Part shown: positions 4,172-15,484 of the stretch, in pieces
Layout of the letters: each line of letters begins with the position of its first letter
Numbering within the stretch: the stretch's first letter is position 1
Assembly: GCA_019873685.1 (NCBI GenBank)
Contig: JAIOAT010000016.1
Coordinates: 1 to 64,000, forward strand
Direction: 5' to 3'
Length of the DNA: 64,000 bases
Source: Chloroflexota bacterium
GTDB taxonomy: Bacteria; Chloroflexota; Anaerolineae; Aggregatilineales; Ch27
Translations under genes and position numbers: made by a program
The notes under the pieces: generated by a model
Told to the model about the DNA's origin: nothing
What the model saw: the letters and a program-made list of their open reading frames with translations, nothing else
Database searches by the model: none

Positions 4172-5008
4172 CTAGTACGTCAGCGAAGCCTTGCTGCGCG
4201 TTTTCTGCAGCGCCGACTCCGGCACTTCCCCTGCCAGCAGGGCCAGCGAGATGTCGATCACCTCATGGGCTTCTTCAGGTGTGGTCGTGCCAATGGTTAC
4301 CATGTCGCAGGAGCGCAGGGTGCTCCATACGAAGGCCAGACCCACCACCGGCAGCAGCCTGCCCGCCGCCAGCGGCTTGATGGTCATGACCGGCTTGCGG
4401 GCATTCTTGATAATGCCCATCACCCAATCCGCTTCGACCTGCATCAGGAAGCCCGCTGCGTTGTAGAGCTGGATGTACGTCTCCACATCTGCGTCCTGCA
4501 TATCGGCGTAGACGATCGCTTCCGGCATGTGGGTGGAAAGGCCGGGGATCATGCCGCGCTCGCGGATCAGCCGGGTGTAGCGATCGATGTCGCGGATGAC
4601 GCGCGTCCGGCGGTCGATCAGGGCGTCGGTCACGCACTGGTGCGGCATGCAGATCGTTGCGCCCAGCGCCTTGGCCCGGTCCAGCACCGGCTCTGGCTCC
4701 TCCGCCGGGTTGCCGCCGGGGGTGATGTTGAAGCTCGGCGTCAGGATGCGGATCATCTCTACGCCCGTAGCATCTTCCGCGTCGCGGATGGCCTGCTCCA
4801 GCGGCTCGGAGAGCGGGGCCATGACCGCATTCACGCCGCGGGTCATAAACACTTTAAAGATAGCGGTCATGCGTTCGCGGGTCTGCAAATCTTTAATGAA
4901 TTTATCTTTGGCCGGGCTGCAGTGGGAATAGCCCAGCAGCCAGTTAGTGCCGATGATCAGGCGCGGCAGGCTGACTCCGCCGACGGTGGTACGTGGAAAA
5001 TCGCTCAT
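4172..5008 (-). CDS. Aldo/keto reductase-like TIM-barrel protein
   Basis: Residues near the end (KPLAAGRLLP, then DMVTIGTTTPEEAHEVIDI) resemble the last two strands of aldo/keto reductases, where the NADPH-binding loop and the 'vigilance' helix lie. The usual N-terminal AKR catalytic Asp-Tyr-Lys-His set is not obvious, so an oxidoreductase role is unproven and it may be a non-catalytic relative. The track start at 5086 adds 26 unlikely residues; ATG 5008 (MSDFPRTT) has AGGGAG a short distance upstream, giving 278 residues. It is the first gene of a likely two-gene operon with the downstream PMT-like membrane protein. Confidence 0.6.
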   Translation of the reverse strand: MSDFPRTTVGGVSLPRLIIGTNWLLGYSHCSPAKDKFIKDLQTRERMTAIFKVFMTRGVNAVMAPLSEPLEQAIRDAEDATGVEMIRILTPSFNITPGGNPAEEPEPVLDRAKALGATICMPHQCVTDALIDRRTRVIRDIDRYTRLIRERGMIPGLSTHMPEAIVYADMQDADVETYIQLYNAAGFLMQVEADWVMGIIKNARKPVMTIKPLAAGRLLPVVGLAFVWSTLRSCDMVTIGTTTPEEAHEVIDISLALLAGEVPESALQKTRSKASLTY

Positions 5009-5053
5009 GGAGAACTCCCTGGGACACAATGAAACCGGGCAAGCCTGACTTTG

Positions 5054-5059
5054 ATTATA
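5054..5059 (-). promoter_or_regulatory. -10 element of the AKR-like/PMT-like operon
   Basis: Perfect TATAAT on the minus strand (CCTATAATC), 45 bases before the ATG at 5008. The -35 region (TGTGCG at 17 bases) is weak. Confidence 0.6.
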
Positions 5060-5188
5060 GGCCAGATCGGCGGGTACGCACATCACGATTGAAGCGGCAA
5101 CATAGCCGCCAGAGCATGGACGACTTCCGGCTGCACATCCGCCCCGGCTTTCCCTGCCCGACCTCCGCCCATTAACAGCAGAACACGG

Positions 5189-5194
5189 TATACT
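5189..5194 (+). promoter_or_regulatory. -10 element of the GH20-like gene
   Basis: GGTATACTC lies 45 bases before ATG 5239. There is no good -35. It belongs to the TATAAT/TACAAT-type hexamers seen ahead of most genes in this window. Confidence 0.5.
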
Positions 5195-5238
5195 CTTGGC
5201 GGTGTGTCTGTTCGCCTGTGCACAACAGGGGGTTGCCC

Positions 5239-7110
5239 ATGGTGCAAAGCCTGGTGCTGCTGCCCGCGCCGCAGCGGCTGAATGACCTGGAAGGCGCGCT
5301 GGAGCTGGAGCCGGGACGCTTTATCTGGTTGGCGGACGGGGTACCGCTGCCGATTGGGCGGGCAGTTCGGGCTGCCCTGGCGGCAGCCGGGCCACACTGG
5401 ACTCTGACCGCCGCCCGTCTGGACGGCAGGCAAATCGGCGCTTCGATCCGGCTGGACCCGGAGGCCATCCCCAGGGCGCAGGGCTACACCCTTAGTATCA
5501 CCCCGCAGGGCATTGAGATTGTCGCCCATGACCGGCCGGGCGCATTCTACGCGGCCATGACCCTCACCCAGATCGCCCGCCAGATGGAAGACAACCGCCT
5601 GCCCTGCCTGCAGATCGAGGACTGGCCGGACTTCCCCAATCGTGGCGTCATGCTGGATATCAGCCGCGACAAAGTCCCGACCATGGACACCCTGTACGAC
5701 CTGATCGACCGCCTGGCCAGCTGGAAGATCAACCAGCTTCAGCTTTACACGGAACACACCTTCGCCTACCGCAACCATCCCGTCGTCTGGGCGGAGGCTT
5801 CCCCCATGACCGGCGAGGAAATCCTGGAGCTGGATGCCTTCTGCCGGGAGCGGTACATCGAACTGGTGCCCAACCAGAACTCGTTCGGCCATATGCTGCG
5901 CTGGCTCAAGCATCCCGCCTACGCTCACCTGGCCGAAGCGCCGAATGGCTTTACCTTCCCCTGGGGCCGGGTTTCCAGGGAGCCGTTCAGCCTGTGCCCG
6001 ACCGATCCGGGTTCGCTGGCGCTGCTGGCAGAATTGTACGAGGAACTGCTGCCGCACTTCAGCAGCCGCCAGTTCAACGTCGGTTGCGACGAAACCTGGG
6101 ATGTCGGCCAGCCCGGCACGCGCAGCGAAGCGGTCGCCCGCCAGAAGGGCGCCGGCCGGGTGTACCTGGACTTCCTGCGCCAGATCCACGATCTGGTCAC
6201 CCGGCACGGGCGCACCATGCAGTTCTGGGGCGACATCATCATCAAGCACCCTGACCTGATCCCGGAACTGCCCGCCGACACGATTGCCCTCGAATGGGGC
6301 TATGAGGCGGATCATCCCTTTGACGAGCACGGCGCAGTTTTTGCTGCATCGGGCATCCCGTTCTATGTCTGCCCCGGCACGTCAAGCTGGCTGAGCATCG
6401 CCGGGCGGACGGCAAACGCGCTGGCTAACCTGTGGAGCGCTGCGGAAAACGGCCTCAAACATGGCGCGATCGGCTACCTGAATACCGACTGGGGAGATTA
6501 CGGGCACTGGCAGCCATTGCCCGTCTCCTACCTGGGCTTTGCCTATGGCGCGGCGGTGAGCTGGGCTGCCGCAGCCAACCATACCCTGGATGTGCCCGCC
6601 GCCCTGGATCACTTCGCCTTCCAGGATGAGGCTGGGGTGATGGGGCAACTGGCCTATGATCTGGGCAATGTCTACCAGCTGGCCGGCGTGCTGGGCGATA
6701 ACCGTTCGGCCCTGCACGGCCTGCTGATGCACGCCGATGTGCCGCTGGGTGAAACCTGGATGGCCGGGCTAAAGGCCCAGGACCTGGCCCGCGCCCAGGC
6801 AGCTATTGAGGAGATCATGCTGCGCCTGGACAGCGCGCAGATCATGGCCCTGGACGCCGACCTGATCATGGATGAGTTTGACCTGGCCGCCAACCTGTTG
6901 CTGCATGCCTGCAAGCTGGGTCAGGCGCAACTGGCCGCGCCGGGCCAGAAGGTGACCAGTATCCCGGATCGGCAGCGTAAGCGGCTGGCCGAAGAACTCG
7001 AGCCGCTGCTGGATGAGTACCGGCGCATCTGGCTGGCCCGCAACCGGCCCGGCGGCCTGGCGGATAGCATCGCCCGGCTGGAAAAACTGCTGGAACTGTA
7101 CCGGGCGTAA
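5239..7110 (+). CDS. Glycoside hydrolase family 20-like beta-N-acetylhexosaminidase
   Basis: The 623-residue protein has an N-terminal small domain (about 1-120) resembling the GH20b fold, then a TIM barrel opening with RGVMLDISRDKVP. The catalytic pair is visible as D284-E285 in NVGCDETWD: in GH20 the Glu is the acid/base and the Asp positions the substrate's N-acetyl group for substrate-assisted hydrolysis. A helical C-terminal region of about 170 residues follows. No signal peptide is visible, so it is probably cytoplasmic and acts on imported oligosaccharides or wall fragments. The track start (GTG 5218) is less likely than ATG 5239, which has GGGGG upstream. It converges on the CPxC gene downstream. 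Confidence 0.85.
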   Translation: MVQSLVLLPAPQRLNDLEGALELEPGRFIWLADGVPLPIGRAVRAALAAAGPHWTLTAARLDGRQIGASIRLDPEAIPRAQGYTLSITPQGIEIVAHDRPGAFYAAMTLTQIARQMEDNRLPCLQIEDWPDFPNRGVMLDISRDKVPTMDTLYDLIDRLASWKINQLQLYTEHTFAYRNHPVVWAEASPMTGEEILELDAFCRERYIELVPNQNSFGHMLRWLKHPAYAHLAEAPNGFTFPWGRVSREPFSLCPTDPGSLALLAELYEELLPHFSSRQFNVGCDETWDVGQPGTRSEAVARQKGAGRVYLDFLRQIHDLVTRHGRTMQFWGDIIIKHPDLIPELPADTIALEWGYEADHPFDEHGAVFAASGIPFYVCPGTSSWLSIAGRTANALANLWSAAENGLKHGAIGYLNTDWGDYGHWQPLPVSYLGFAYGAAVSWAAAANHTLDVPAALDHFAFQDEAGVMGQLAYDLGNVYQLAGVLGDNRSALHGLLMHADVPLGETWMAGLKAQDLARAQAAIEEIMLRLDSAQIMALDADLIMDEFDLAANLLLHACKLGQAQLAAPGQKVTSIPDRQRKRLAEELEPLLDEYRRIWLARNRPGGLADSIARLEKLLELYRA

Positions 7111-7147
7111 GCGCCGGTCGGTTGGGCTTCAATATAGGCAATCAGCG

Positions 7148-7173
7148 GGGGTGGCTCCGGTAAGGGCCGCCCC
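7148..7173. terminator. Hairpin between convergent genes
   Basis: GGGGTGGC and GCCGCCCC form an 8-bp stem with one G-U pair and a 10-base loop, 38 bases after the GH20-like stop. There is no clear U-tract, so terminator function is tentative. Confidence 0.35.
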
Positions 7174-7320
7174 ATTGCTTTCGCGGGAATGGGGCAGGAT
7201 AAGGGTGCTGAGAACGCTGACAAAGCGTATAAGCCCCGGTCAGGATGGCTCAATCCTCCCTGCCGCAGCGGGGGCCGGCGATGACTGACAACGTGGGCTG
7301 CCATTACGCGGCGAAGTCCT

Positions 7321-8073
7321 TCAGTTATCATCAGGTTTTCCCTGTGGATTCCCTCCGGAGAAGGTGAGCGCCCGCCACAGGGCCATTTTCTCCGCCTCAG
7401 TTTTTGCCTCGTGGCGGTAGTTCCATGTGCTCTTGCGCTCAAATTCGCTTAGATCATGGTGCAATGTCCCGAGGCGTTGCCGGGTTGTCTCGACCAGAAA
7501 CCGCGCGCCACTTTCGACTGTCCGATCAGCGGCTGCCAGCCCCTGGCGCAGGTGCCGCAGACACAGACCTTCTGAAGCAGCATACGCCGTGCGGAATTGA
7601 TCTTCCGGCCCTGACAACTCCCGTAGCAGCCACGCCAGGTAGCTTTGCTCCGATTCCTCGCCCATCTGACACACGCGGCAGGGCGCTTCAGGCTGTAGCT
7701 CGCGGGCAGCAAGTGGCTGCCACGACCGGGGCCAGATCGCTTGCAGCAGGCGCCGCCACCAGGGCTGGTGTGTCCAGCCCATCCGGCGGGTATAAAGCGC
7801 CAGCCGTTCCAGAATAACGCTGGAGAGATGCTCGTACAGAATAACGTTGCCCAGCGGAACGCCAAATTCCTCCTGTTCCAGGAGACCGATCTGCCAGGTA
7901 TGTTCGGGGCAATACCCCAGCGACCGGATGAAGTGGCCGCGCGTTGGCGGATCGTTGATGGATTCCCACAGCAACGAACGGATATAGCGCAGTTCGCTTT
8001 CAGCCCGCAGATGGCAGATCGGGCAGCCAGGCCGCTGTAGTGCCAGTTTCAAATAGATCGCGACAAGCGACAC
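7321..8073 (-). CDS. DUF6062-like cysteine-motif protein (putative zinc or redox protein)
   Basis: About 250 residues with paired cysteine motifs: GCPICHLRAESELRYI near the N-terminus, GYCPEHTW about 40 residues later, then CRVCQMGEESEQSYL and LCLRHLRQGL. This duplicated CPxC...CxxH pattern is typical of the uncharacterised DUF6062 family and suggests two metal sites; the function is unknown. The track start lies 26 bases inside the MFS gene. A GTG at 8073, only 4 bases after the MFS stop codon, gives a tighter translationally coupled start (SLVAIYLKLALQ). It is therefore the second gene of the MFS transcript and would share its attenuated leader. Confidence 0.6.
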   Translation of the reverse strand: MSLVAIYLKLALQRPGCPICHLRAESELRYIRSLLWESINDPPTRGHFIRSLGYCPEHTWQIGLLEQEEFGVPLGNVILYEHLSSVILERLALYTRRMGWTHQPWWRRLLQAIWPRSWQPLAARELQPEAPCRVCQMGEESEQSYLAWLLRELSGPEDQFRTAYAASEGLCLRHLRQGLAAADRTVESGARFLVETTRQRLGTLHHDLSEFERKSTWNYRHEAKTEAEKMALWRALTFSGGNPQGKPDDN

Positions 8074-8077
8074 TGCT

Positions 8078-9301
8078 CTAATCCCTGTATGAACGGAGTA
8101 CAACCATCATGGTCACCGCCCCCAGCAGGGTTAGCACCAGGGTGTAGGCGAAGCCGACCGATGGCGAAAATGCTGACCACAGCAGACCAACAACCAGACT
8201 GGAGACAAAATCGCCGATGCCATTGACGGTTGCCAGGACACCAAACCCCGTGCTCCGGACCTGTTCCGGCACCAGATCGGCGGCGATTGCGCGTTCCAGC
8301 GACTGTTGCGAAGCATAGACCGTCCCTGCCAGCGCAAAGGCCAGCGCCAGCGTTGCCACGGAAGGTATCTCCACAATCAGCAAGAGGTTGTACAGGGCAG
8401 CCAGCAGATAGGCGCCAATCAACAACCAGCGTTTGCCGATGCGGTCGGCCAGCGCACCGACCGGGTACGCGCCTGCCATGTAGAGAACATTGTGGAGTGT
8501 GTAAAGCGCGATGGCGGTACTGGCAGCCCCCTCCGGGCCGAGCGTGCCGGTCAGGACTTGCGTTGCACGGAGGATCAGGAGCGTGTTGGCGTAATCGCCG
8601 ATTCCGAAAAGAAAAATCCCCACCAGGTAGCGCCGGAAGGATGGCGGCAGTCTCCTCAACGACCCGCGTAGCGTGAGCGTGGCGCTGGTTCCACGGTCTC
8701 TTTCCCTGACCAACACCAGGATGGAGATAGCCGCCAGGATACCCGGAATAGCCGCCAGCCAGAAGATCCAGCGGTAGGCGTCAACAGCTGGCATGGTGCG
8801 CCCGAACACCGCGACCAGGGCGAGCGCCATAAGCGGCCCGCAAACAGCGCCAAGCGTGTCTGCCGCCTCATCGAAACCAAAGGCGCGTCCCCGCGCTTCC
8901 GCCGGAACTACATCAGCCAGCATGGCGTCATGAAGCGGGGAGCGGAATCCCCGCCCGGCCCAGCCCACCGCACGCGCGACCAGCACAGCGGGCCACGCAT
9001 CCGCCAGAGCGTACAAACCCGTGGTCAGGCCGGTCACCAGGTAGCCCAGCGCTGCCCAGCGTCTGCGGCGGCGAACCCGATCCCCCAGCCAGCCGCCGAA
9101 CAACTTGGCAAAGCTCGACAGGCCATCCGAGACAGCCTCAATCGCGCCCAGTGCAGCCGCTGGTGCGCCGATCGCTGCCAGGAATGGCGGCAGGATCGCC
9201 GACCCGGCCTCATGGCCAAAGTCCGAGAAGAAACGGTTGAGGGCTAATCCGATGACATCGCGACTGATCCATGATGAGTGGTTACTGGTCTGGTTGCTCA
9301 T
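8078..9301 (-). CDS. MFS transporter, DHA1-like drug/metabolite exporter
   Basis: The 407-residue protein has about 12 hydrophobic helices. The loop 2-3 signature GGWLGDRVRRRRRWAALGY matches the major facilitator Gx3(D/E)(R/K)xGx(R/K)(R/K) pattern, and a second copy, ADRIGKRWLLIGAY, marks the C-terminal half. Substrate cannot be read from sequence. ATG 9301 (MSNQTSN) was chosen over 9325 because the upstream reading frame (uORF 9298-9456) ends in an ATGA overlap exactly at this codon. The long leader with an intrinsic terminator indicates attenuation control, which is known for several efflux-pump genes. Confidence 0.85.
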   Translation of the reverse strand: MSNQTSNHSSWISRDVIGLALNRFFSDFGHEAGSAILPPFLAAIGAPAAALGAIEAVSDGLSSFAKLFGGWLGDRVRRRRRWAALGYLVTGLTTGLYALADAWPAVLVARAVGWAGRGFRSPLHDAMLADVVPAEARGRAFGFDEAADTLGAVCGPLMALALVAVFGRTMPAVDAYRWIFWLAAIPGILAAISILVLVRERDRGTSATLTLRGSLRRLPPSFRRYLVGIFLFGIGDYANTLLILRATQVLTGTLGPEGAASTAIALYTLHNVLYMAGAYPVGALADRIGKRWLLIGAYLLAALYNLLLIVEIPSVATLALAFALAGTVYASQQSLERAIAADLVPEQVRSTGFGVLATVNGIGDFVSSLVVGLLWSAFSPSVGFAYTLVLTLLGAVTMMVVLRSYRD

Positions 9302-9456
9302 GGTCTGCCTGCGTGGTAACTCCATGTCCAGTGCAATAAAAAGCCTCTACCATCATGCTTCGCGCACGGGTAGAGGCTATCAGTCCACAGAGGGCAATTT
9401 CGCCAGTCAGCGCCGGCGCCAGCGAGCCTCATCGCTGCCTGATTATCAGGTTGCAT
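9298..9456 (-). CDS. Leader ORF (uORF) upstream of the MFS transporter, 52 codons
   Basis: Opens with ATG at 9456 (MQPDNQAAMRLAG...) and ends with TGA at 9298-9300, sharing ATGA with the MFS start at 9301, so a ribosome finishing it would be positioned to start the transporter. The terminator hairpin at 9333-9378 lies within its 3' half. The -10 lies only 3-4 bases before this ATG, so translation would be leaderless or would start at the internal ATG at 9432 (M9). The peptide resembles nothing I recognise and is rich in Trp, Cys and His near its end. The regulatory role is inferred. Confidence 0.5.
   Translation of the reverse strand: MQPDNQAAMRLAGAGADWRNCPLWTDSLYPCAKHDGRGFLLHWTWSYHAGRP
9333..9378 (-). 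terminator. Intrinsic terminator inside the MFS leader (candidate attenuator)
   Basis: On the minus strand AGCCTCTACC, a 17-base loop, then GGTAGAGGCT (perfect 10-bp stem) followed by TTTTTATT. It lies 32 bases upstream of the MFS start, within the uORF. The sequence GAGGCT at 9425-9430 (minus) can pair with the AGCCTC of the first arm, giving a possible anti-terminator. Confidence 0.75.
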
Positions 9457-9459
9457 CCT

Positions 9460-9488
9460 ATTGTTACGCTTTTGCCCCGGCGTGTCAA
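9460..9488 (-). promoter_or_regulatory. Promoter of the MFS leader
   Basis: Perfect TTGACA (9483-9488), a 17-base spacer and AACAAT (9460-9465) on the minus strand, directly before the uORF ATG at 9456. Confidence 0.65.
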
Positions 9489-9634
9489 AAAAGCGCGGGA
9501 GGAGGGCGTACAAACTACTTGCATCTGGCAGGGCGGCTGAAGGGCCGTGATAGGATGCGCTTCGTACGGGTCTTATTGACGCCTCCATGATTGCCGCCTG
9601 CCGATCCGCGATCTGCGATCATCCCGGAATCTGG

Positions 9635-9640
9635 TACAAT
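9635..9640 (+). promoter_or_regulatory. Extended -10 of the S10 peptidase gene
   Basis: TGGTACAATC, an extended -10 (TGn then TACAAT), 79 bases before the ATG at 9720. The rest of 9489-9719 holds no other gene I can support. Confidence 0.55.
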
Positions 9641-9719
9641 CGCCAGCGCTCATCTGTTACAACCAGCGTTGTACCAGCGCTGCCTGCCCTGAATTTGCCC
9701 GCTGCCGGAGGGGCAACCC

Positions 9720-11216
9720 ATGACCGAAGAGAACCCGAGAGTTGAACAACCCGAACAGAAGAAAGACGATACGCCGGAGAAGAAGCCCACCCCACCGGAA
9801 CCCGCGCCGGTTGAGACGCGCCATACCGTGGCTGTAGACGGGCGCACGCTCTCCTATACCGTCACCACCGGGCGGCTGCCGCTGACCAACGAGGAAAAGG
9901 GCGAAGTCGAAGCGCATGTGTTCTTTGTAGCCTATACGCTGGACCGCCCGGAAGGTGCGCCGGCCGGCGCCCGCCCGCTGACGTTTGTGTTCAATGGCGG
10001 CCCCGGATCGTCGTCGGTGTGGCTGCACCTGGGCGCAGTCGGGCCGCGCCGTGTCCTGATGCAGGATGAAGGCTGGATGCCCGCGCCGCCTTACCGGCTG
10101 GTGGATAACCCGCATACCTGGCTGGACCTGACTGACCTGGTGTTCATCGATCCGGTCGGGACGGGTTTCAGCCGCGCCGTCAAACCGGAATTGAACAAGC
10201 AGTACTGGAGTTTGCACGGTGACCTGCAGGCGGTCGGCGAATTCATCCGCCTGTACCTGACCCGCTACGGTCGCTGGGCGTCGCCCCTCTTCCTGGCCGG
10301 GGAAAGCTACGGCACCACCCGCGCGGCGGGGCTGGCCGGTCATCTGGTCGACCGGGGCATCGCCTTCAACGGTATTGTGCTGATCTCCACCACGCTCAAC
10401 TTCCAGACGCTGGAGTTCGAGCAGGGCAATGACCTGCCCTATGCGCTCTTCCTGCCCACCTATACGGCGACCGCCTGGTACCACCGCAAGCTGCCCGCTG
10501 ACCTGCAGGAAAAACCGCTGCGCGCCGTGCTGGATGAGGTGGAAGCCTGGGCCGGCTCGGAGTACCTGATCGTCCTGGCGAAAGGCGACCGGCTGGCTGA
10601 AAGCGAGCGCCAGGCCGTGATCAGGAAGCTGGCCCGTTACACCGGCCTGGAGCCGCGTTACATCGAGGGCACGCGGTTGCGCATTGAGATCATGCGCTTC
10701 TGCAAGGAGCTGTTGCGGGATGAAGGGCGCACGGTTGGCCGCCTGGATTCGCGCTTCAGGGGTCTGGACGCCCTGGCTGTGACCGAACGCCCGGAGTTTG
10801 ACCCCTCATACACCGCCATTGTGCCGCCCTACACGGCCATGCTCAACGACTACGTGCGCCGCGAACTGGGCTACGAAACCGACCTGGAATACCAGACGCT
10901 CAGCTTCAAAGTGAACGCTGAATGGCAGTGGGATCAGGGCAAGTATGCCGATACCAGTGAGGCGCTGCGCGGCGCGCTGGCCCGCAACCCGTATATGAAG
11001 GTCTTTGTGGCTGCCGGGTACTATGACTTGGCGACGCCCTACACGGCGACCTACTACACCCTCAGCCACATGAATCTGGCCCCGGAACAGCGGGCCAACA
11101 TCCAGACGGCGGAATACGAGGCTGGGCATATGCTCTACCTGGACCTCAAGTCGCTGGCCCGGCTCAAGACGGACGTGGCCGGGTTCATTGCCGGGGCGCT
11201 GATCGGCCAGGGATAA
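9720..11216 (+). CDS. S10 family serine carboxypeptidase-like peptidase
   Basis: The 498-residue protein has the oxyanion-hole motif FNGGPGSSSVW (about residue 90), the nucleophile elbow GESYGTTRAAG (about residue 196) and a late AGYYDLATPYTATYY / YEAGHMLYLD block carrying the catalytic Asp and His. All three parts of the serine carboxypeptidase triad are therefore in place. Bacterial members are poorly studied and cleave C-terminal residues in the eukaryotic family. The first 35 residues are charged and Pro-rich with no signal peptide, so a cytoplasmic location is likely. It is transcribed from its own promoter, and a GC hairpin follows the stop. Confidence 0.87.
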   Translation: MTEENPRVEQPEQKKDDTPEKKPTPPEPAPVETRHTVAVDGRTLSYTVTTGRLPLTNEEKGEVEAHVFFVAYTLDRPEGAPAGARPLTFVFNGGPGSSSVWLHLGAVGPRRVLMQDEGWMPAPPYRLVDNPHTWLDLTDLVFIDPVGTGFSRAVKPELNKQYWSLHGDLQAVGEFIRLYLTRYGRWASPLFLAGESYGTTRAAGLAGHLVDRGIAFNGIVLISTTLNFQTLEFEQGNDLPYALFLPTYTATAWYHRKLPADLQEKPLRAVLDEVEAWAGSEYLIVLAKGDRLAESERQAVIRKLARYTGLEPRYIEGTRLRIEIMRFCKELLRDEGRTVGRLDSRFRGLDALAVTERPEFDPSYTAIVPPYTAMLNDYVRRELGYETDLEYQTLSFKVNAEWQWDQGKYADTSEALRGALARNPYMKVFVAAGYYDLATPYTATYYTLSHMNLAPEQRANIQTAEYEAGHMLYLDLKSLARLKTDVAGFIAGALIGQG

Positions 11217-11224
11217 GCGGATGA

Positions 11225-11248
11225 GGGGCGCGGCGCATGCTGCGCCCC
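11225..11248 (+). terminator. Hairpin after the S10 peptidase
   Basis: GGGGCGC and GCGCCCC form a 7-bp GC stem starting 9 bases after the stop. There is no U-tract, so it may stabilise the 3' end rather than terminate. Confidence 0.35.
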
Positions 11249-11310
11249 TGTGCTACTGCAGATCGCTGGCAGGCCCGGCCTGCGCCCGATCCGGACGTCA
11301 TTTCATTCGC

Positions 11311-11330
11311 TAGCACAAACGTGCTATACT
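11311..11330 (+). promoter_or_regulatory. radA promoter -10 overlapped by a TAGCAC-N4-GTGCTA palindrome
   Basis: TGCTATACT (-10 at 11325-11330) carries a TGn extension. TAGCAC (11311-11316) and GTGCTA (11321-11326) form a perfect 6-bp inverted repeat with a 4-base centre overlapping the -10. The geometry resembles LexA-type operators (half-sites separated by 4 bases), which would suit a recombination gene, but the half-site is not the Bacillus consensus. Confidence 0.55.
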
Positions 11331-11367
11331 ACCTCCTGAATGGCTTCCAGCAGGGAGGGAGGGGCCT

Positions 11368-12741
11368 GTGGCCAAGACGCGCACCAAGTACGTTTGCCAG
11401 GAATGCGGGCGCGAGTCCCCGCGCTATATGGGCCGCTGCCCGGCCTGCGGCGAGTTCAACACCATGGTCGAGGTGGTGGAAGCGCCGCCTGCCAAAGGCG
11501 TCAGCCCGCGCCCGGCAGGCGCGCCGCAATCCCGCCCGCAGAAGCTGCGCGAGATCAGCGGCGACGCCGGCGTGCGCCTGCCGCTGCCTATCGCTGAGTT
11601 CTCCCGTGTGCTGGGCGGCGGGATCGTCCCCGGCAGCATTGTCCTGATCGGCGGCGACCCCGGCATCGGCAAGAGCACGTTGCTGCTGGAGGCGGCGGCG
11701 AAGCTGGCCGATACCAGCGGGCCGGTGCTTTACGTTTCCGGCGAAGAATCGGCCCACCAGATCAAGATGCGCGCCGAACGGCTGAACCTGCATCCGGAGG
11801 AGTTGTACGTCGTCACGGAAACCAGCCTGGGGATGATCTTTGAGCATGTGGCCCGCTACCAGCCGCAAATCCTGATTGTCGACTCGATCCAGACCACCTT
11901 CACCGAGGAGGTGGCTTCCACCGCCGGGAGCGTCACCCAGGTGCGGGAGTGCGCCAACCGCCTGCGCGAGCTGGCCAAGAGCAGCGGCATGGCCGTTTTC
12001 ATTGTCGGGCACGTGACCAAAGAGGGCACGATCGCCGGGCCGCGTGTCCTGGAGCACATCGTCGACACGGTGCTTTACCTGGAGGGCGACCCCTTCCAGA
12101 CCTACCGCCTGCTGCGCAGCGTCAAGAACCGCTTTGGCGCGACGAGCGAGGTGGGCGTCTTTGAGATGCGCGGCAGCGGGCTGGTAGAAGTGCCCAACCC
12201 GTCGGAGGCATTCCTGGCGGAGCGGGTGGTCAACGCGCCGGGCAGCGCCATCGCGGTCACGCTGGAAGGGACGCGCCCGCTGCTGGTGGAGGTGCAGGCG
12301 CTGTGCAGCCCGACCTCCTTCGGCTACGCCCGGCGTACCGCCAACGGCATCGACTACAACCGCCTGCTGCTGATCACCGCTGTGCTGACGCGGCGAATGG
12401 GCTTCAAGCTGGCCGAACAGGATGTCTTCGTCAACGTGATTGGCGGCCTGAAGATCGACGAGCCGGCGGCAGATCTGGCCGTAGCGGTCGCCCTGGCCTC
12501 CAGTTACCTGGACCGCCCGGTGCCCGCTGACCTGGCCATCGTCGGCGAGATCGGCCTCAGCGGGGAGTTGCGGGCGGTGAGCCAGCTCCCGATCCGCCTG
12601 AACGAAGCGGCCAAGCTGGGCTTCCGGCGCATCCTGGTGCCCCGCGCCCGGCGCAAGGACGATCTGGCGGTCAAGGGGCTGGAAGTGATCCCGGTGCGCA
12701 GCATCGCGGAAGCCTTCCGCGTGGCTGTGCCGGAGCAGTGA
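11368..12741 (+). CDS. radA: DNA repair protein RadA (Sms)
   Basis: The 457-residue protein has every RadA hallmark: a C4 zinc finger at the N-terminus (CQECGRESPRYMGRCPAC), the Walker A GGDPGIGKSTLL, Walker B-like ILIVDSIQ, the RadA-specific KNRFG motif, and a C-terminal Lon-like domain (DLAVAVALASSYLDRP, GEIGLSGELR). RadA is a RecA-like, hexameric branch-migration helicase for recombination intermediates. The start is GTG 11368, preceded by GGGAGGGAGGGG. The palindrome over the promoter suggests damage-linked control. Confidence 0.97.
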   Translation: MAKTRTKYVCQECGRESPRYMGRCPACGEFNTMVEVVEAPPAKGVSPRPAGAPQSRPQKLREISGDAGVRLPLPIAEFSRVLGGGIVPGSIVLIGGDPGIGKSTLLLEAAAKLADTSGPVLYVSGEESAHQIKMRAERLNLHPEELYVVTETSLGMIFEHVARYQPQILIVDSIQTTFTEEVASTAGSVTQVRECANRLRELAKSSGMAVFIVGHVTKEGTIAGPRVLEHIVDTVLYLEGDPFQTYRLLRSVKNRFGATSEVGVFEMRGSGLVEVPNPSEAFLAERVVNAPGSAIAVTLEGTRPLLVEVQALCSPTSFGYARRTANGIDYNRLLLITAVLTRRMGFKLAEQDVFVNVIGGLKIDEPAADLAVAVALASSYLDRPVPADLAIVGEIGLSGELRAVSQLPIRLNEAAKLGFRRILVPRARRKDDLAVKGLEVIPVRSIAEAFRVAVPEQ

Positions 12742-12827
12742 CGGGCGACGGGCGCCCCCACTTGACGAATCCTGCCGGATGGCCTACAGTCGCGGGCAGG
12801 CAGGATTCCCCCCAGGAGGCATCAGGC

Positions 12828-14243
12828 ATGGCGATCAACTACGCCAAGTTCGGGCTGGACGCCAACCAGCCGCTGGATTCCTCTGGCAACATTGCGCGTC
12901 GCCTGCAGAACCCCGACCTGCTGGCCGCTTCCGGCGCGCACTGGCTGCGCCTCAACTTCGTGCTGCCCAACCTCAGTTACCTGGACCGCTACGACCGCAT
13001 CGTTGATGGTTTCCGCAGCCGGGGAATGAAGATCTACGCCACTGTCGGCCATGACGCCTGCCGCGACTTCTGGCTTGGCGATACCCTGCGCGACCCCAAC
13101 CATCCCAACGCCGCCGCCTGGATTCAGGCCTACGCCGCCCGCTTCCGGGCCATCGTCGACCGCTACCGGGGCAAGATCTTCGTCTACGAGGCGCTCAACG
13201 AGCCGAACGGCTGGCATGGCGGCGACCGCGCTCTGGTTCATCCGCGCTGGTTCGTGGCCATGATGAACACGCTCTACCAGACTCTCAAGCCCCGCGAACG
13301 CGGCATCCGCCTGATCAGCGCCCCGCTGGAAGCGACATGGATCAACGGCAATGAGGCCGCCCGCTACCTGAACACCGTCTACCAGGTCGGCAACTGGGCG
13401 CCCGGTGAAGTCCCCTGGGACGGCGTCGGCTACCACCTCTACATCGGGGAAGACCCCGCCTCGCCGACCGGCACCGACGGCTCGATCAACCCGGAGGACA
13501 TCCGCGCCACCTACCGTTCCTACATGGACCGTATGTGGGCGGTGATGCACGCCCACGACCCCGGCACCAAGCACCTGATCTTCGTCTCGGAATTCGGCTG
13601 GTCATCCGACCTGGGGGAGGATTACCAGGCCCGCCAGAACACGCTGGGCATGTCCCTGCTGGCCGCCGATGACCGGGTGGCGCTGGCTTCGCTGTTCTGC
13701 GCGGAGGACTTCGGCAAGAAGTACGGCCTGTTTGTGGAAGGGCTGGGCCGTCCCAAGCAGGCCTTCCACAAGTTCCAGGAACTGATGCGCGCCCACGCCC
13801 CGCAGCGCAGCGCCCAGGTTGACCTCAAGGCGCTGGAAGGGCCGGTTAACGTCCCGGTGGAAGGCGCGCCCAAAGGCCCCAGCTGGCCGTGGTCGGTCGG
13901 GCCGGGGCTGATGAAGCACCCGGTGCAGCGGCGGGTGGTGATCCTGCTGCCGCCTTTTGACGATGGTCGCTGGGGGCGGGCGGTGCTGGACGCCGGCTAC
14001 TACGGCCAGGGCGGGGTGACGATCACCTGGAGTCCGGGCGAGGCCGGGCTGACCATCGCCGGGGAGACGCGGCTGGTGCTGGTGGTCAACCCGCTGGAAT
14101 GGGGCACGCCGGATGGCTCGATGGTGCCCTGGTTCCGGGCCAACACGCCGGGCGTGAAAGTGCGAGAGGAGACCTTCGCCTCCCCCAAAGCCCTGACCGA
14201 TTGGCTGAAGGCCAACCCCGATCCCTTCGCCGGGATGCAATAG
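12828..14243 (+). CDS. Clan GH-A-like TIM-barrel glycosidase-type protein
   Basis: ATG 12828 (MAINYAKFG) has AGGAGG 9 bases upstream; the track start at 12738 overlaps radA and is rejected. The 471-residue protein has YEALNEPNGWHGG (about residue 120), the NEP motif holding the acid/base Glu of clan GH-A, and FVSEFGWSSD (about residue 255), where the nucleophile Glu sits at the end of strand 7. This layout fits GH5/GH39/GH42-type retaining glycosidases. A C-terminal segment of about 130 residues is not recognised. There is no signal peptide. The substrate is unknown, and a non-hydrolytic relative cannot be excluded. Confidence 0.65.
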   Translation: MAINYAKFGLDANQPLDSSGNIARRLQNPDLLAASGAHWLRLNFVLPNLSYLDRYDRIVDGFRSRGMKIYATVGHDACRDFWLGDTLRDPNHPNAAAWIQAYAARFRAIVDRYRGKIFVYEALNEPNGWHGGDRALVHPRWFVAMMNTLYQTLKPRERGIRLISAPLEATWINGNEAARYLNTVYQVGNWAPGEVPWDGVGYHLYIGEDPASPTGTDGSINPEDIRATYRSYMDRMWAVMHAHDPGTKHLIFVSEFGWSSDLGEDYQARQNTLGMSLLAADDRVALASLFCAEDFGKKYGLFVEGLGRPKQAFHKFQELMRAHAPQRSAQVDLKALEGPVNVPVEGAPKGPSWPWSVGPGLMKHPVQRRVVILLPPFDDGRWGRAVLDAGYYGQGGVTITWSPGEAGLTIAGETRLVLVVNPLEWGTPDGSMVPWFRANTPGVKVREETFASPKALTDWLKANPDPFAGMQ

Positions 14244-14308
14244 GGGTTAGCGCGTGGCAGCTTCTATTGGACGGTCAACTTGGAATCTCCTCCAATGGAT
14301 ACTGTTGT

Positions 14309-14791
14309 CTACTTCAAGTACTCTAGATAGAAGGAAACTATTCCTAAAATAGATGCTAATAGGCCTATACCCTGAATAACGAGCCAAACAATTGTTCCAC
14401 ATCCCCCTAGATTAATATCACCTAGGCCATTACTTGCCATACGTAGAACAAGTACGAGAAAGAGGCCGGGTAAAGAAGCGAGTCCAAGGGCAACAAGACC
14501 AGCTAGAAACATAGCATTTGTAACAGAGACACCCGAAAGTACCGTAGAAGGCACACCTTCCGCTATACTTAGACTCCCGATCACGGAGATGAGCCAAAAC
14601 GGCTCGGCTGAAGCGGAGTAGATATCGTAAAGTAGGGCTGCAGTTAGAATAGAAGCAAGGAATAACCAACCTATGATAATTGAAGTCAGCAAGCCGGGTC
14701 CTACAACGGACATCATTCTTCTTAACATCGCAATGAGAAAAAACAGTACACCCACAGCAATAAACCATATCACGACAGTAAAAGTTGCCAT
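14309..14791 (-). CDS. Small AT-rich multi-pass membrane protein of unknown function
   Basis: 160 residues with about four hydrophobic helices (near residues 3-24, 34-55, 88-115 and 132-156). The start has an excellent ribosome-binding site, GGAGGATAAT directly before ATG. I recognise no family. Base and codon use differ sharply from the surroundings: frequent AT-ending codons and long AT-rich runs from about 14260 to 14870, in an otherwise strongly GC-rich chromosome. This points to recent acquisition. It is a single gene between the convergent clan-A glycosidase-like gene and the yceI gene, with no transposase or integrase nearby. Confidence 0.7.
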   Translation of the reverse strand: MATFTVVIWFIAVGVLFFLIAMLRRMMSVVGPGLLTSIIIGWLFLASILTAALLYDIYSASAEPFWLISVIGSLSIAEGVPSTVLSGVSVTNAMFLAGLVALGLASLPGLFLVLVLRMASNGLGDINLGGCGTIVWLVIQGIGLLASILGIVSFYLEYLK

Positions 14792-14875
14792 ATTATCCTC
14801 CGTATCATCGTATTATTGTCTCGCTAGAATTGCTCCCTGTTCACGTTATCATGGTAGAGATTATAGAAGAAACAG

Positions 14876-14905
14876 AACGGGCGCGGCCAGCCAGCCGCGC
14901 CCGTT
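14876..14905 (-). terminator. Terminator of the yceI gene
   Basis: AACGGGCGCGGC and GCCGCGCCCGTT form a perfect 12-bp stem with a 6-base loop. On the minus strand it is followed by CTGTTTCTTCT. It lies 37 bases beyond the YceI stop. Confidence 0.75.
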
Positions 14906-14941
14906 TGGGTGAACAGGGGGGAAGAATCCCGGAGGCAGACT

Positions 14942-15484
14942 CTAGGCCACCGCCTGCTTCTCCGGCACCTCGACGAGTTCCAGATCAACATCGACTGTGA
15001 TTTCCTCGCCGACCAGCACGCCGCCAGTCTCCAGAGCCTGGTTCCAGGTCAGGCCCCAGTCTTTGCGGTTGATCGTCGTCTGCCCGCTGAAGCCCAGGCT
15101 GACCGTCCCCCAGGGGCTTCTCGCCTTGCCCACAAACGCCACATCCAACGCCACCGGGCGGGTCACGTCGCGGATGGTCAGGTCGCCGTAGAGGCGGGCG
15201 GTATGCTCGCCGGTGCGCTCCACGCGGGTGCTCTGGAAGGTCAGGTACGGGTACTGCGCCGCGTTGAGGAAGTCAGGCGACTTGAGGTGATTGTCGCGGT
15301 CCGCGTTGCGGGTGTTGATGCTGGCCGCCTCGATCTGCACGGAGATAGTCGTGCGCTCCGGATGTTCCTCATCCAGGTTCACCGTACCGGAGAAACGCTC
15401 AAATTCGCCGCGTACCCTGCTGATCATCATGTGCCGCGCGGAGAACTGAATGTGCGTGTGAACGGGGTCAATCTGCCAGGCCAT
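14942..15484 (-). CDS. YceI family protein (polyisoprenoid-binding lipocalin-like)
   Basis: The 180-residue protein begins MAWQIDPVHTHIQFSARHMM, the canonical YceI opening (Asp-x-x-H-T/S followed by a beta strand). It continues with TVNLDEEHPERTTISVQIEAASINT and DHLKSPDFLNAAQYPYLTFQST, both family hallmarks. YceI proteins are beta-barrel binders of long polyisoprenoids such as quinones. The start is ATG 15484, preceded by GGGAGGATTACCCC; the track start at 15514 is upstream of this site. No signal peptide is present, so it acts in the cytoplasm. It is divergent from an HxlR regulator and is very likely its target. Confidence 0.93.
   Translation of the reverse strand: MAWQIDPVHTHIQFSARHMMISRVRGEFERFSGTVNLDEEHPERTTISVQIEAASINTRNADRDNHLKSPDFLNAAQYPYLTFQSTRVERTGEHTARLYGDLTIRDVTRPVALDVAFVGKARSPWGTVSLGFSGQTTINRKDWGLTWNQALETGGVLVGEEITVDVDLELVEVPEKQAVA

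Follow-up and report, generated by a model that had tools for sequence, protein, structure and literature searches.

A probable fluoride riboswitch with an additional hairpin in the leader of an MFS-DUF6062 operon from a Chloroflexota bacterium

The fluoride riboswitch, or crcB motif (RF01734), is an RNA class whose mechanism is already known. In Bacillus cereus and Thermotoga petrophila the aptamer folds first, and a pseudoknot locked by fluoride withholds six nucleotides at its 3' side from the terminator (PMC11077080, PMC8752731, PMC13273304); in the T. petrophila RNA the linchpin of this arrangement is A40-U48 (PMC8752731). Earlier publications connect fluoride riboswitches with genes for MutS-like proteins and enolase (PMC2864571, PMC8752731). 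A second group of leaders, the uORF attenuators of resistance genes such as those with erm or ABC-F leader peptides, has some of the same outward elements. The locus described here is the leader of a major facilitator superfamily (MFS) transporter gene, located in a 64,000-nucleotide stretch of DNA from a Chloroflexota bacterium (the window). Judging from its anatomy, its homology, the covariation of its helices, its conserved binding-site nucleotides and the presence of the same RNA before crcB genes, we put at roughly 90% the probability that this leader is a transcriptional ON fluoride riboswitch that carries an extra hairpin separating P1 from J1/2 and controls the MFS-DUF6062 operon.

All elements of the leader lie on the minus strand. 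The promoter TTGACA-17-AACAAT (9460-9488; -35 at 9488-9483, -10 at 9465-9460) matches the consensus at 10 of 12 positions, is the top promoter-like site within 5000-15000, and gives a predicted +1 at about 9453. The whole leader RNA, aptamer and terminator together, covers 9338-9439 and is matched with 98.1 bits by R1, a covariance model introduced below. In P1 (9421-9436), AGCG at 9436-9433 pairs with CGCT at 9424-9421, and the loop holds the 5' strand of the pseudoknot, GAGGCU (9425-9430); the partner strand, AGCCUC, lies at 9378-9373, with the linchpin U48 at 9372. P1 is followed by an inserted hairpin (9401-9418, arms 9418-9413 and 9406-9401) that is not part of the Rfam consensus, and then by the junction J1/2 (AAAUU, 9396-9400), a place where most relatives are also A-rich. 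The small P2 aptamer hairpin (9383-9395) pairs GCCC with GGAC, which in the window copy includes one C-A mismatch, and the 3' tail of the aptamer (9372-9382) carries U38 at 9382, A40 at 9380 and U41 at 9379.

The intrinsic terminator (9338-9378) consists of the arms AGCCTCTACC (9378-9369) and GGTAGAGGCT (9351-9342), which pair perfectly over ten positions; TTTTT (9342-9338) and ATT come next. The folding energy of the hairpin is -24.3 kcal/mol against a mean of -11.6 for shuffled sequences (z -5.1; 0 of 200 shuffles), and the window has a single occurrence of the pattern GCCT-N8..30-AGGCTTTT, against an expected 0.14. The 5' arm of the terminator includes the 3' strand of the pseudoknot. In simple energy terms the isolated pseudoknot duplex reaches -8.7 kcal/mol, well short of the terminator hairpin, so the terminator should win when no ligand is present. 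The preliminary description of this DNA had pointed out the promoter, a 52-codon uORF ending in ATGA, the ten-pair hairpin with its U-run, and the complementarity between GAGGCT (9430-9425) and the AGCCTC in the hairpin's first arm, and each of these is found where it was placed. Its proposal that the leader is a transcription attenuator, with GAGGCT/AGCCTC giving it two folds that exclude each other, is very likely correct.

A different matter is what the attenuator senses. The uORF (9298-9456) runs from an ATG at 9456-9454 to a TGA at 9300-9298, which overlaps the MFS ATG (9301-9299). It had been suggested that the position of the ribosome on this frame picks between terminator and antiterminator, such that ribosomes stalled by a drug would induce the MFS gene. 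The uORF, the terminator, the alternative pairing and the ATGA overlap are indeed all present, and the leader shares with the erm and ABC-F type its position 5' of a transporter-like gene. However, the very promoter named in the preliminary description puts the start codon of the uORF at -3 to -1 relative to the predicted +1, so that the ATG is untranscribed if AACAAT is the -10 element, a result that depends on a promoter assignment which is itself a prediction. There is a second, internal AUG (9432-9430) in frame with the uORF. Among 18 relatives, the frames that start from this aptamer AUG have 4, 9, 12, 14, 15, 16, 17 and up to 307 codons, and no conserved leader peptide or set of stall codons is found in them. 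The AUG itself is conserved because it belongs to GAUG, a motif of the fluoride site. The promoter is conserved and the frame is not, and the compensatory changes in the helices, given below, fit an RNA structure. Unlike the erm and ABC-F leaders, this leader has a conserved aptamer in place of a conserved or transcribed leader peptide. We regard the uORF as a non-functional part of the locus, and translation sensing as very improbable.

The leader belongs to a family of related RNAs. The preliminary description had proposed a comparison with the leaders of MFS orthologues; these gave no common hairpin, at first sight a sign of non-conservation, but a search of the source genome with the hairpin pattern revealed paralogous leaders, three copies in all, with an identical stem and differing loops. 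Upstream of the three hairpins the elements follow a common order: AGCGATGAGGCTCGCT comes first, then a hairpin that varies, a stretch rich in A, another small hairpin and CT(G/A)ATAGCCTCTACC. This spacing would suit a structured RNA in which a conserved GAGGCU in the P1 loop pairs with AGCCUC. A broader pattern brought up a fourth source-genome copy, as well as matches in ten more genomes of the order; the match in G153 (L048) is without the remaining motif and was left out as a chance match. The model R1 was built solely from 17 order-level copies (alignment A1), with a short calibration that makes its E-values rough. It finds four matches in the source genome, at 89-98 bits, the next being an antisense artefact at 28 bits, and across 400 genomes of the phylum it has matches in 70 at E <= 0.001. 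Antisense matches of 22-29 bits were excluded as the symmetric terminator read backwards. The window holds a single sense-strand R1 site, from which it follows that the ABC-F leader, which the preliminary description had paired with this one, is not an RNA of the fluoride-riboswitch-like type.

TTGAC(A/G)-17-xAxAAT-like elements stand 7-26 nt from the aptamer in most of the order-level relatives. Several leaders of the order (e.g., L038, L039, L041, L049 and L050) have TTGACG-17-xAxAAT with similar A-rich spacers, and perhaps the order-level leaders share a common promoter type.

In a permissive Rfam search of a short segment of 201 nt, RF01734 matched at 9445-9364 with 21.8 bits (E 3.7e-4); all other matches had E > 1. 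In the alignment, P1, the junction, P2 and the tail correspond, with one insertion of 18 nt between P1 and the junction. The score fails the gathering cut-off of 34 bits, which is a detection threshold and not a structural trait, and by itself it is a lead only; at the gathering threshold, Rfam has no match in the window. A whole-genome search with RF01734 failed to list the four source-genome copies, and its weak matches, which turned up in all 14 control genomes, were disregarded. Among the relatives, 14 of 40 related loci contain an RF01734 match above the cut-off, almost all at the R1 site, which ties the window leader by homology to accepted fluoride riboswitches, and homologues with a like insert (e.g., L096, L097, L099, L103 and L117) score 34-45 bits. 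We class the window leader as a homologous variant of the fluoride riboswitch, below Rfam-threshold membership. A resemblance to the hammerhead ribozyme (GAUGA...GAAA) was also considered and rejected, as the CUGAUGA core is not there.

Compared with accepted members of RF01734, such as the T. petrophila and B. cereus crcB RNAs, the leader has the same P1, the six-pair pseudoknot from the P1 loop, the A-rich J1/2, the P2 hairpin, the GAUG...CUGAU...U positions and a terminator that overlaps the 3' strand of the pseudoknot, and its relatives likewise precede crcB, mutS-like and enolase genes. It differs in three respects: the covarying hairpin stretch that its family has between P1 and J1/2, the score below the cut-off, and the MFS-DUF6062 operon as its gene target.

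Covariation was assessed in an alignment of 56 sequences (A3), which was fitted to the nested helices and so favours those helices, the pseudoknot standing outside the model. Over P1, the insert, P2 and the pseudoknot, 96.1% of the cells hold standard pairs, compared with 36-48% when the strands are slid by 1-3 columns. In 14 of the 19 pairs both partners have changed, and no shuffle matched the observed values. By helix, P1 is paired in 97.8% of cells with compensatory changes in three of four pairs, and P2 in 92.7% with such changes in all four. For the pseudoknot, pairing is standard in 99.7% of cells, with the compensatory change from GAGGCU/AGCCUC to GAAGCU/AGCUUC. The extra hairpin has both-sided changes at each of its five modelled pairs. 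The stretch from P1 to P2 is bimodal in length: it measures 4-9 nt, the usual junction, in 10 of the 56 sequences and 15-38 nt in the other 46, most of which contain the extra hairpin. In the terminator stem, 98.9% of the cells hold standard pairs. At the level of the order its 3' arm differs by G-U changes or one mismatch only, and the shared 5' arm is invariant, as would be expected for an arm that serves two structures.

Of the nucleotides that form the ligand site or lock the pseudoknot, A6, U7, G8, U38, A40, U41 and U48 (T. petrophila numbering), each is conserved in 55-56 of the 56 sequences (A40, U41 and U48 in all 56, U38 in 55), and every one of them is present in the window copy. In the crystal structure, A6, U7, G8, U38 and U41 are positions of the fluoride/Mg2+ site. 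This intactness bears on a further explanation, that the hairpin is a plain terminator or an operator palindrome free of ligand control, with the aptamer similarity a decayed remnant. The great stability of the hairpin and the one P2 mismatch of the window copy would be in keeping with this explanation. The pseudoknot pairs and the site nucleotides of this copy are nevertheless all in place, and the promoter stands at the usual distance, which leaves the idea extremely improbable.

For the riboswitch reading, we propose the following course of events. As the RNA emerges it would fold P1, the extra hairpin and P2, after which GAGGCU in the P1 loop would pair with AGCCUC downstream. Binding of fluoride and Mg2+ would lock the pseudoknot and bar AGCCUC from the terminator, so that RNA polymerase reads through into MFS-DUF6062. 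When fluoride is absent, the terminator, with AGCCUCUACC (9378-9369) and GGUAGAGGCU (9351-9342), would invade the pseudoknot, and transcription would end at the U-run that extends to 9338. Fluoride binding, the switching itself and the aid of the MFS and DUF6062 proteins to fluoride tolerance are the parts of this scheme that we infer. Points against this reading include the score of the window copy under the Rfam cut-off and its C-A mismatch in P2.

The genes downstream are the MFS transporter (407 aa; 8078-9301, minus strand; PF07690, 147.8 bits) and a DUF6062 gene (7321-8073, minus strand; PF19538, 59 bits), which starts a few nucleotides past the MFS stop and belongs to the same operon. 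The transporter had been assigned a role in drug response. It is of the same MFS family as NorA and other DHA-type drug exporters, and NorA is its closest solved relative by sequence, but its similarity to known exporters is weak (for NorA, E 8e-10 over half the protein). The assignment is not supported by the gene context of its orthologue in another genome (G014), which is linked to crcB and not to drug-resistance genes. There, an MFS protein 70% identical to that of the window and a DUF6062 protein 64% identical lie in a co-directional cluster headed by a riboswitch, in the order riboswitch, DUF6062, small protein, MFS, DUF6062, small protein, CrcB, and a further protein that resembles one that follows crcB elsewhere. 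Four other MFS genes, from two genera and 26-28% identical to the window MFS, are located right behind such riboswitches. For the orthologues in G036 and G016 (MFS 62% identical), no riboswitch could be detected in the 15.6 kb and 18 kb examined, which indicates that fluoride does not control this MFS in every case.

Of about 51 loci examined, 10 have the fluoride channel gene crcB (PF02537) downstream. The same RNA precedes it in the C62 copy of the source genome and in three order-level genomes (G035, G049 and G020), and the crcB-linked copies, in the source and in other genomes, have the same type of insert. These copies bear on one more possibility, namely a relative of the fluoride riboswitch with a changed ligand, in which the inserted hairpin helps to build a different pocket and the MFS exports some other compound. 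The insert does adjoin the junction, the MFS does resemble drug exporters such as NorA, and the window copy does fall under the Rfam cut-off; a changed ligand would be compatible with the sequence evidence. With the same insert type before crcB and the known site nucleotides unaltered, we consider it quite improbable. MutS-like genes and one enolase gene also occur behind copies of the riboswitch, both names resting on our own reading of the sequences. An enolase from a class-level relative has as its closest structure PDB 4yws, the Chloroflexus enzyme, in keeping with Chloroflexota as the phylum.

Three things appear to be new, as far as we could check: the covarying extra hairpin, the tendency of the members that carry it to score under the Rfam cut-off, and the likely membership of MFS and DUF6062 genes in a fluoride regulon. 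Within the open literature searched, we found no work joining fluoride riboswitches with MFS in the regulon sense, and no mention of DUF6062. The reading put forward here would correct a drug-sensing attenuator to a fluoride sensor, and it suggests that the phylum holds a fluoride-riboswitch subtype often missed by the standard database cut-off. The entry of MFS and DUF6062 into the fluoride regulon would make a role in fluoride tolerance directly testable. It is tempting to go further, though tentatively and with considerable doubt, and to see in the MFS, possibly together with DUF6062, a new fluoride exporter or tolerance system besides CrcB/Fluc and CLC-F, and in the extra hairpin a functional part of a phylum-wide riboswitch subtype.

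Several other observations were made along the way. No other genes stand behind this riboswitch family as often as the DUF6062-like ones, which occur at over 20 of some 51 loci (L052, L038, L039, L055, L096-L100, L106-L111 and others); their proteins have PGCxxC and GLCxxH-like motifs and no known function. In another MFS group, from one genus (L016, L018 and L019), a conserved hairpin, GGCTTCTCTCATTTTCGGATGGGCAGAAGCC, followed by TTTT stands right before the gene; the single region of this group that was searched with R1 (L128) has no match, and the hairpin is possibly another attenuator. Dynamin-like GTPase genes were seen behind fluoride riboswitches in three genomes (L054, L060 and L104), including contig C32 of the source. 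One genome has four riboswitch copies on one strand within 9 kb (G191, contig C98:29605-38208). In another (G009, contig C110:4468-4598; L059), two fluoride aptamers above the Rfam cut-off form a tandem pair on the same strand, only a few bases apart, with crcB and DUF6062-like genes downstream.
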